Shown: positions 44,743 through 45,665 of the stretch, piece after piece
Layout of the letters: each line of letters begins with the position of its first letter
Numbering within the stretch: position 1 is the first letter of the stretch
From: Chlorogloea purpurea SAG 13.99
GTDB lineage: Bacteria > Cyanobacteriota > Cyanobacteriia > Cyanobacteriales > Microcystaceae
Direction: 5' to 3'
DNA: 64,000 nt
NCBI GenBank assembly: GCA_016903695.1
Contig: JADQBB010000001.1
Coordinates: 265,189 to 329,188, forward strand
Translations under genes and position numbers: made by a program
The notes under the pieces: generated by a model
Told to the model about the DNA's origin: nothing
The model's input: only the letters and a program-made list of their open reading frames with translations
Database searches by the model: none

Positions 44743-44874
44743 CTATGGTGTGCCCCGACCCGAAAAGCTTACATACTGGTCATTTGCATTTCCTGCAAAG
44801 TAGGTTCAAATCCTACCGTCTCCGCTGCAACATGGAGACTGAAACAAACAGCTGCTCAAACTCGCACATCGTAG
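44743..44874 (+). ncRNA. Y-RNA-like tRNA-mimic RNA, copy A (rearranged core)
   Basis: Closing stem CTATGGTGTGC/GCACATCGTAG (11 bp), internal loop CCCGACCC / AAACTC, inner stem GAAAAGCT/AGCTGCTC (two mismatches) and CATAC, as in copies B and D. The core has an anticodon-like hairpin TTTGC/GCAAA (loop ATTTCCT) and a T-arm GTAGG/CCTAC (loop TTCAAAT), but no D-arm. Directly after the T-arm comes GTCTCC, a 10-nt loop and GGAGAC: the two strands of an acceptor stem in permuted order. About 132 nt. Confidence 0.65.
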
Positions 44875-44885
44875 ATATTAATATC

Positions 44886-45017
44886 TCACCTCGTGCCCCG
44901 ATCGAAAAAGCTTACATACTCGCCTAGTGGATTAGGGCATTTGATTGCAGATCAAACTATCGCGGGTTCAAATCCCGTGTATGAAACAACAGCTTTTTCA
45001 ACTTGCACGATCGGTGA
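44886..45017 (+). ncRNA. Y-RNA-like tRNA-mimic RNA, copy B (GCA loop)
   Basis: Closing stem TCACC-TCGTGC / GCACGA-(TC)-GGTGA (11 bp, 2-nt bulge). Internal loop CCCGATC / AACTT. Perfect 9-bp stem GAAAAAGCT/AGCTTTTTC (44904-44912, 44991-44999). Then a tRNA-like domain: acceptor-like CATAC/GTATG (5 bp), D-arm GCCT/GGGC with loop AGTGGATTA, anticodon arm TTTGA/TCAAA with a normal 7-nt loop TTGCAGA (GCA, Cys) and T-arm GCGGG/CCCGT with TTCAAAT. It cannot be a normal tRNA because the acceptor is short and closed by a long stem. The plan is that of YrlA-type Y RNAs. Confidence 0.75.
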
Positions 45018-45029
45018 TTTATTTCCAAA

Positions 45030-45109
45030 GGAGAGTAAATCGATTAGGAGGTCGGCGCTGTTTGCTAAACAGATGGATGGATAATTGTGGTTCGAGTCCA
45101 CTGCTCTCC
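45030..45109 (+). ncRNA. Degenerate tRNA-Ser(GCU)-like sequence
   Basis: Acceptor GGAGAGT/GCTCTCC (7 bp, one G-U), D-stem TCGA/TCGG with GG in the loop, anticodon stem CTGT/ACAG (outer pair lost) with loop TTGCTAA (anticodon GCT) and T-arm GTGG/CCAC with TTCGAGT. The variable region is 13 nt without the stem normal for tRNA-Ser. CCA not encoded; G follows as discriminator. Probably derived from a tRNA-Ser and either decayed or reused as an RNA ligand. Confidence 0.65.
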
Positions 45110-45111
45110 GT

Positions 45112-45187
45112 GCCGGATAACCAAGGGAAATCCAGGCATAATCTCGGTTCCGAGAACCGATGGTCTAAAATTCTTCCCGCCCCATAT
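45112..45187 (+). other. Spacer hairpin between the two Ser-like RNAs
   Basis: TCGGTTC/GAACCGA (45144-45150, 45154-45160; 3-nt loop) sits within GGGAA/TTCCC (45125-45129, 45174-45178). It may be a further, strongly reduced RNA module. No tRNA arms could be assigned. Confidence 0.4.
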
Positions 45188-45270
45188 GGAGGGCACCGCT
45201 GAACGGCCGGCAACTAGTCTTGAAAACTAGGGTAGCTTTCGGGCTAGGGGTTCGATTCCTCTGCTCTCCG
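45188..45270 (+). tRNA. tRNA-Ser(UGA)-like gene, class II, imperfect D-arm
   Basis: Acceptor GGAGGGC/GCTCTCC (7 bp, one G-U), discriminator G. The D-arm is weak (CCG/CGG, 3 bp). Anticodon arm CTAGT/ACTAG with loop CTTGAAA, anticodon TGA for Ser. A class II variable arm AGC/GCT is present, and the T-arm AGGGG/CCTCT has loop TTCGATT. CCA is not encoded. It is the most normal tRNA of the array and might be charged with Ser, but a housekeeping copy probably exists elsewhere. Confidence 0.65.
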
Positions 45271-45327
45271 TCGCGGGAGGAAGTTCCACGCGCTCGATAA
45301 CTTATTAATTCAATGGAGGTGATAGAA

Positions 45328-45528
45328 ATGGTACATATCCGCTTTGAAGGACGATCGCTAGATCTACCGGAAACCTTATTGGGAATTAACACCAGCACCA
45401 ATGATGGGGCGGTTAAAGAGCGAGTTTCCCGACATCTGGAGGTGAATACTAATAGGCTTGACGATTACGTGATTGATCGCCGTCCCAATGGAGATTTGAT
45501 CATCCGTCCCGAAGCCGTTTACGGTTAA
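45328..45528 (+). CDS. Candidate ubiquitin-like beta-grasp protein
   Basis: 66 residues from the ATG at 45328; GGAGGTGAT (45315-45323) is a strong ribosome-binding site and rules out the in-frame ATG at 45313. Predicted order: a beta hairpin (MVHIRFEGRSLDLPE), a helix (DGAVKERVSRHLEV) and two strands (YVIDRRPNGDLIIRPEAVYG), a beta-grasp pattern. It ends in Tyr-Gly, so a C-terminal Gly is available for adenylation. An E1/ThiF-like gene lies 2.9 kb downstream in the same orientation, which supports a ubiquitin-like role. The fold is inferred from pattern only. Confidence 0.65.
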   Translation: MVHIRFEGRSLDLPETLLGINTSTNDGAVKERVSRHLEVNTNRLDDYVIDRRPNGDLIIRPEAVYG

Positions 45529-45534
45529 GAACTC

Positions 45535-45665
45535 TCATCCCGTGCCCCAATCGAAAAAGCTTACATACTAGCCCAGCTTGGTAGGGCGTTTGATTGATTA
45601 ATCAGAATGTCGCGGGTTCAAATCCCGCGTATGAAACAACAGCTTTTTTAACTTGCACGGGGTGA
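45535..45665 (+). ncRNA. Y-RNA-like tRNA-mimic RNA, copy D, overlapping the TROVE ribosome-binding site
   Basis: Closing stem TCATCCCGTGC/GCACGGGGTGA (11 bp, one G-U), internal loop CCCAATC / AACTT, inner stem GAAAAAGCT/AGCTTTTTT (9 bp), then CATAC/GTATG. Cloverleaf core: D-arm GCCC/GGGC with AGCTTGGTA, anticodon stem TTTGA/TCAGA with an 8-nt loop TTGATTAA, T-arm GCGGG/CCCGC with TTCAAAT. The 3' strand of the closing stem (45655-45665) contains GGGGTGA, the Shine-Dalgarno of the TROVE gene at 45672. Folding would hide that site. Confidence 0.75.

Follow-up and report, generated by a model that had tools for sequence, protein, structure and literature searches.

The 64,000-nucleotide (nt) stretch of Chlorogloea purpurea SAG 13.99 analysed here (contig JADQBB010000001.1, positions 265,189 to 329,188), called the window below, contains a locus in which three putative structured RNAs accompany the gene of a Ro60-like protein. 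All features of the locus lie on the plus strand. tRNA-type genes and the RNA copies 1 (44743..44874) and 2 (44886..45017) are followed by the gene of a small protein, copy 3 (45535..45665), the Ro-like gene (45684..47120), the gene of a protein termed B and a ThiF/E1-like gene. The start codon of the Ro-like gene is located 18 nt past the end of copy 3.

The original prediction had taken the three RNAs for Y RNA-like molecules. This reading was supported: the RNAs have a paired end stem and a domain resembling tRNA, and a Ro-type gene lies next to them. R1, a covariance model built from 35 RNAs including copies 2 and 3 and excluding copy 1, matched at exactly the predicted positions of the copies. 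In each copy an 11-bp closing stem and an inner stem enclose a loop, 7 nt long on the 5' side and AACUU or AACUC on the 3' side, an arrangement which we call the handle. As predicted, the closing stems pair; all 11 pairs form in each copy when G-U pairs are counted, with a 2-nt bulge in copy 2. Copies 2 and 3 carry a complete tRNA core in standard order, grafted onto the handle by its acceptor stem. The Rfam tRNA model gave 50.7 bits for copy 2 (44913-44986) and 47.5 bits for copy 3 (45562-45636), and R1 gave 121.1 and 126.9 bits, respectively. The anticodon triplet of copy 2 is GCA, and the anticodon loop of copy 3 has 8 nt. The common plan proposed for all three RNAs thus holds for copies 2 and 3, whereas copy 1 is built otherwise. 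Its predicted fold, which lacks a D arm, comprises a T arm and two hairpins, one of them acceptor-like and capped, and suggests a permuted tRNA-like head. By our own count 6 of the 9 inner-stem pairs form, and its R1 score of 45.7 bits compares with up to 51.6 bits for ordinary tRNAs in genomes without the protein. A pattern search for the handle (handle grammar) found two matches in the window, copies 2 and 3, and missed copy 1. Copy 1 is the weakest case of the three. It is called a handle RNA because its ends pair and because it resembles, by eye, the RNAs behind tRNA-Trp in the arrays of loci L001, L002, L039 and L081. According to the predicted pairing, the acceptor stem of copies 2 and 3 runs on into the base-paired handle, and a loop caps that of copy 1; none of the copies has the free 5' and 3' acceptor ends of a functional tRNA (RNase P, CCA). 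The Rfam YrlA model (RF02553) matched none of the three copies at an expectation value (E) ≤ 1, and neither copy 1 nor copy 2 at E ≤ 10.

The adjacent TROVE protein of the original prediction was supported by predicted fold and not by family match. No match to Pfam TROVE (PF05731) was found in the window's own genome, and the 478-residue window protein gave none at E up to 1. In contrast, profile-to-profile alignment with hhalign connected the protein to TROVE (98%, E 2.7e-13, 415 columns), and its predicted structure (predicted local distance difference test score 89.3) matches Ro60 over 437 residues. The protein is thus predicted to have the Ro60 fold, a helical ring plus a vWA domain, the latter with the metal ion-dependent adhesion site motif DKSGSM. 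The residues D304, S306 and S308 of this site are invariant in 39 alignment rows. Canonical TROVE proteins occur in 21 of 146 genomes of the phylum, and five of these genomes (G008, G024, G074, G125 and G127) contain both proteins. The canonical cyanobacterial TROVE proteins are remote homologues of the Ro-like protein, yet separate proteins.

In order to describe the family, 82 sources were compared, namely 79 related loci, a plasmid, a huge phage and the window. The titles of the related loci name cyanobacteria, Myxococcota, Chloroflexota, Acidobacteriota, Armatimonadetes, Obscuribacterales and others. The Ro-like protein was found in 81 of the 82. Across this collection the handle comprises the closing stem, a CCYRAY loop, the inner stem with UACA behind it, and RACUU in the 3' strand. 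R1 produced 344 matches at E ≤ 1, some of which are the cores of ordinary array tRNAs; the best 300 all lie on the strand of the gene. The handle grammar yielded 225 matches on the gene's strand, 3 on the reverse strand and a mean of 2.0 over three shuffles; as it required the 5'-loop A, UACA and ACUY, these features lean in the counts. At least one grammar match was present in 67 of the 82 sources.

The alignment sets consisted of the window and 38 of the 79 loci (A1), 35 RNAs (A2), 12 (A7), 13 (A8) and 33 of the 52 listed permuted RNAs of 124-148 nt (A9). Over 35 RNAs the stems and arms of the type found in copies 2 and 3 covary, in agreement with the covariation first read from the three closing stems. 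Among the 37 pairs of A2, 96.0% of the cells pair, compared with 80.1% after shuffling and at most 50.5% after sliding, and both sides change in 28 pairs. In permuted heads both sides change in 23 of 28 pairs, including all 7 of the capped acceptor hairpin. The D-arm and T-arm helices of standard heads are 100% paired. Candidates were preselected by pairing of the closing and inner stems, so that these features lean, and the T arm was used for sorting heads; the D, anticodon and acceptor-hairpin pairs are free of selection. The covariation of handle and head helices across loci of several phyla contradicts the notion that the copies are decaying tRNA genes whose handle arose by chance or as a spreading repeat. 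The window does resemble a reduced tRNA array, and one neighbour of the RNAs seems to be a decayed tRNA-Trp. However, the handle recurs in loci titled Myxococcota, Chloroflexota and Acidobacteriota and in a huge phage, and handle RNAs closely co-occur with the protein. We therefore consider such an origin extremely improbable.

The co-occurrence was examined in the 146 genomes under strict filters and with a cut of 60 bits that was chosen after the gap in scores had been seen. As the original prediction would have it, strong R1 matches were confined to genomes with the protein. All 22 matches of at least 60 bits fell into 11 genomes, and these belong to the 13 genomes with a strong protein match. 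The two remaining ones are G116 and G125, the gene being truncated in G125. None of the other 133 genomes, 3 of which match the protein profile weakly, had an R1 match of 60 bits or more. Three of the 22 matches, in two genomes, lie on contigs other than that of the gene. In G060 and G024 (L116-L119), handle RNAs, RNAs of the GTPase-centre type described below and a run of 34 tRNAs called by ARAGORN were seen off the contig of the Ro-like gene.

Where a grammar match lies upstream (65 sources), the distance from the end of the last RNA to the protein match ranges from 20 to 891 nt, with values of 61-64 nt being the most frequent. This spacing, together with the 18 nt before the start codon in the window, would suit RNAs that act in cis, as leaders within a polycistron which control the Ro-like gene or mark cleavage sites and have no role in trans. 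Such an explanation is unlikely in our view, as copies occur downstream of the gene, on other contigs (3 of the 22 strong matches) and in tRNA arrays lacking the gene (3 of 6 plasmid arrays), and a locus carries several different heads.

The 225 grammar matches were sorted by head motif. Standard-order tRNA heads (71 in 45 sources), permuted tRNA heads (62 in 47), mini hairpin heads (35 in 34), heads of the helix 69 (H69) type (12 in 12), heads resembling the GTPase centre plus the sarcin-ricin loop (11 in 11) and 34 heads of other kinds were obtained; this sort missed L005 and probably L014 of the GTPase-centre/sarcin-ricin type, and placed L034 among the permuted heads although it matches 23S rRNA near position 1913. 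All 32 anticodon loops of seven nt in A2 have U33, whereas 18 different triplets occur; a wider set of standard heads retains U33 in 54 of 59 cases. Permuted heads run from an anticodon-like hairpin through a well conserved T arm and loop-joined acceptor strands to the D arm, which places the handle at the junction of the D and anticodon arms. Rfam YrlA gave E values of 3.3e-7 to 0.0035 for 7 heads, of which 6 had been sorted as permuted and 1 as other; they come from 5 of the 6 loci scanned, and all score below the cut-off, the best with 46.4 bits against a gathering score of 69.

Two further classes resemble 23S rRNA. The class of about 201 nt scored 45.3 bits (E 4.8e-12, cut-off 50) with the Rfam archaeal large-subunit (LSU) rRNA model, and in G060 an LSU piece of 54.6 bits, over the bacterial cut-off, lies inside a handle match. 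By blastn against a cyanobacterial 23S rRNA the class corresponds to positions 1069-1137 (E down to 1.2e-10); at 2656-2669 all 14 nt are identical, with an E of 0.017. The sequence AGTACGAGAGG is conserved in 12 of 12 RNAs of this class. The class of about 180 nt matches 23S positions 1913-1945 (E down to 1.7e-8), and its 3' end resembles the preceding strand. Consequently, this class looks permuted, with the handle apparently replacing the H69 hairpin loop.

Further observations concern single groups of heads. In five loci a short insert resembling a cyanobacterial repeat breaks up the T loop, as judged by eye, and the handle still pairs (L007:9138-9287, L008:9481-9630, L012:7971-8126, L020:8164-8319 and L003:6009-6164). 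Heads of about 140 nt, termed class E, are alike in six loci and lie directly upstream of the Ro-like gene (L001:9797-9937, L002:7950-8091, L003:9797-9937, L039:9795-9938, L081:9796-9938 and L062:9748-9883). Calls of ARAGORN in Nostoc loci, tRNA-Pyl(cta) for instance (L013:7477-7549, L017:7256-7328), are heads of handle RNAs. Automatic tRNA annotation misnames heads, and some 'Pyl', 'Leu' or '???' calls belong here.

The small protein in front of copy 3 (45328..45528) has 66 residues and ends in RPEAVYG. It gave no Pfam or NCBIfam match; with homologues in relatives and an E1 gene nearby it is probably ubiquitin-like. Protein B (47594..48430; 278 residues) is conserved ahead of the E1 gene, matches no family, and its predicted structure has no clear fold. 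The ThiF/E1-like adenylating enzyme (48427..49059) matches PF00899 with 6.7e-27. Ubiquitin-like candidates were detected in 53, B in 49 and E1 in 46 of the 82 loci, and all three together with the Ro-like protein in 37. The candidates are encoded upstream of the Ro-like gene, carry a C-terminal [YF]G in 53 of 53 cases and are accompanied by E1 in 39 of 53 loci. An L7/L12-like protein cluster occurs in 19 loci (one representative scanned, PF00542 2.8e-23), in genomes that are assumed to encode the ordinary L7/L12 in addition. KptA-like and Prok-JAB proteins are found in 5 of the 82 loci each, HNH proteins in 8 and a gene of the alr0857 type in 7. The E1 and, in the 5 loci, the Prok-JAB cluster are shared with PRTRC and other bacterial ubiquitin-like/E1/JAB systems. 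The E1 matched PRTRC_ThiF with 1.2e-13, below the cut-off and behind general ThiF families (best 5.3e-27), and NCBIfam names no other PRTRC protein among the locus proteins scanned. A protein of 241 residues is encoded upstream of the Ro-like gene in 21 cyanobacterial loci (L005:8989-9711 and 20 others); NCBIfam gave no match to it, and Pfam none below E 0.05. L080, the 595-kb uncultured huge phage LR756511, encodes the small protein, the Ro-like protein, B, JAB, E1 and tRNAs, and has R1 matches of 84.1 and 71.8 bits and no grammar match.

The three tRNA-type genes of the window are 85, 91 and 92% identical to array genes upstream of the same protein in relatives. The first (44668..44740; Rfam tRNA 39.7 bits at 44670-44740), apparently a decayed relative of the array tRNA-Trp, corresponds to L081:5949-6021 (85%), which also precedes a copy-1-type RNA. 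The second, a tRNA-Ser(GCU)-type gene (45029..45110) with a tRNA-Sec model match under the cut-off, corresponds to L039:5550-5630 (91%), and the third, a tRNA-Ser(UGA)-type gene called by ARAGORN (45187..45272), to L001:5855-5938 (92%). This resemblance to genes of full arrays gives the window the look of a reduced tRNA array. Elsewhere in its genome, tRNAs for Ser, Trp and His are present. Upstream runs of 9-33 tRNA-type matches were observed in 7 of 81 loci (L001, L002, L003, L021, L039, L048 and L081), and in all of these except L021 and L048 a handle RNA follows the Trp gene within a few bases. Homologous arrays reside on Nostocales plasmids. Among six compared, five have an HNH gene annotated upstream and the sixth an open reading frame (ORF) of equal size in the same place; three contain a handle RNA and lack the Ro-like gene. 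Among the 15 cyanobacterial plasmid records listed, only that of Kovacikia has the Ro-like gene.

According to excerpts of PMC10272220, TrcR represses the tRNA operon of Anabaena, rtcB and other translation genes, and its operator motif is printed there. The Anabaena trn operon and TrcR regulon likewise combine tRNA arrays with operators like this motif; handle RNAs are not mentioned in those excerpts. With the half-site and operator motif taken from this source, three TrcR-type half-sites (GTAGTAT, GTAATAC, GTAGTAT) flanking a TTGACA box were located at 44445..44485, a candidate operator/promoter of the array and the only cluster of at least three half-sites within 60 nt across the window. 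A second half-site pair (GTAGTAT, GTAATAC) is at 44635..44654. In the 46 loci assigned to cyanobacteria from their titles, which may be wrong for metagenome-assembled genomes, 25 operator matches with up to 3 mismatches were found in 22 loci, and in 16 loci a match lies no more than 1 kb ahead of the first array element. The same search gave none in one shuffle and none in 35 other loci. In L001, L002, L003 and L039 the array is preceded by a putative TrcR gene, so called because it neighbours HNH and alr0857-family genes, and the window's genome encodes a homologue (E 8.3e-13) of the L002 protein. Since TrcR represses a tRNA operon and TrcR-type operators lie upstream in many cyanobacterial relatives, translational stress would be expected to induce the array and its RNAs.

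The closest known systems are the Rsr and YrlA/YrlB pairs of Salmonella and Deinococcus (RYPER; rsr-yrlBA-rtcBA operon). As described in excerpts of PMC7790460 and PMC8394870, they likewise comprise a Ro60-fold protein and, encoded beside it, RNAs of 90-150 nt that combine an end stem with a tRNA-like domain. The 3' ACUUG of the Rfam YrlA consensus is common to the handle RNAs. In contrast to Rsr and YrlA, the protein found here has no Pfam TROVE match, most loci encode several RNAs, heads include standard-order tRNAs with an anticodon loop and, in cyanobacteria, 23S-like heads, and a probable ubiquitin-like protein with E1 is present, to which some loci add an L7/L12-like protein or tRNA arrays. 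The Ro/YrlA precedent, the linkage, the conservation of the handle and the predicted Ro fold together make it likely that the Ro-like protein grips the handle RNAs.

Anticodon loops, helices 69-71 (H69-71), the GTPase centre and the sarcin-ricin loop are targets of nucleases, translation toxins and inhibitors. We propose that the Ro-like ring would grip the common handle, that TrcR-type operators would induce the RNAs under translational stress, and that the heads would present look-alikes of tRNA and ribosome sites as decoys or sentinels for factors which attack or handle tRNA and ribosomes. A partner or the complex might be modified by the probable ubiquitin-like protein and E1, and some loci also supply spare tRNAs, an L7/L12-like protein or the repair enzyme KptA. 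This reading is favoured because the heads copy targeted sites, the triplet varies around a fixed U33 and spare translation parts are co-encoded; its chances appear evenly balanced to us, decoy action being the least certain step. A competitive-inhibitor role has been proposed for YrlA (excerpts of PMC7790460). With less than even confidence, the scheme may be extended to many phyla and a huge phage. The Ro60-like ring would then hold handle RNAs as an exchangeable library and form part of an immune-type system that serves translation through decoys and repair. The vulnerable sites presented in this way would be anticodon loops and permuted tRNAs, to which cyanobacteria would add H69-71 as well as the GTPase centre together with the sarcin-ricin loop. 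The spare tRNAs, the L7/L12-like protein and the ubiquitin-like conjugation module would belong to the system too.

The main rival of the decoy reading is a tether. Here the heads held by the Ro-like ring would recruit enzymes that recognize tRNA or rRNA, such as PNPase or modifying enzymes, and steer them to damaged RNA for decay or repair as in the Deinococcus RYPER. Such tethering has been reported for Rsr with Y RNA and PNPase, and both DusA and TruB act on YrlA (excerpts of PMC7790460 and PMC8394870). The fully paired D and T arms of standard heads, the well kept T arm of permuted ones and the KptA-like genes also fit. By itself, however, a tether leaves the varied triplet with its fixed U33 unexplained and accounts neither for the tRNA arrays nor for the copied 23S parts. 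We regard it as possible and rather doubtful.

Several points weigh against the decoy reading. Salmonella YrlA fragments were undetected under an anticodon nuclease (excerpts of PMC7790460), which fits an inhibitor and not a sacrificial bait. By our own reading the H69-type head lacks the hairpin loop itself and would have lost some target nucleotides. All rRNA-type heads come from cyanobacterial sources, and exact patterns found none in the window's genome, an assembly also without a 23S match. Mini heads and class-E heads matched nothing recognized when the rRNA operon was searched. The full 18-nt TrcR operator is unmatched in the window within 4 mismatches. A ubiquitin-like candidate, B and E1 are all absent from the ORF clusters of 20 of the 82 loci, contig ends included. 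Finally, 15 of the 82 sources have no grammar match. In four of these (L069, L073, L077 and L079) the match starts within 130 nt of a contig end, and two (L054 and L080) have R1 matches above 80 bits. Of the other nine (L045, L049, L051, L056, L066, L067, L072, L075 and L078), only L067 has an R1 match (35 bits) among the matches listed.

Why bacteria retain Ro60 and Y RNAs is a long-standing question. The loci described here form a large uncharacterised branch of the Ro60/Y RNA systems, in which the RNA partners are numerous, modular and readable. As a single handle carries heads in which copied parts of tRNA and 23S rRNA can be identified, factor-head pairs become open to direct tests in culturable cyanobacteria. 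The cyanobacterial tRNA arrays gain a protein and RNA context.

Two further regions of the window were noted. Between the Ro-like gene and the gene of protein B an inverted repeat (47156-47522) has 75-nt arms that are 81% complementary and 217 nt apart, with a second repeat pair nested inside; it looks like the remnant of a small mobile element. Upstream of the locus, at 39324-41356, a TnpB-like ORF of 534 residues and a divergent transposase-like ORF of 136 residues likely represent, by eye, an IS200/IS605-type pair.
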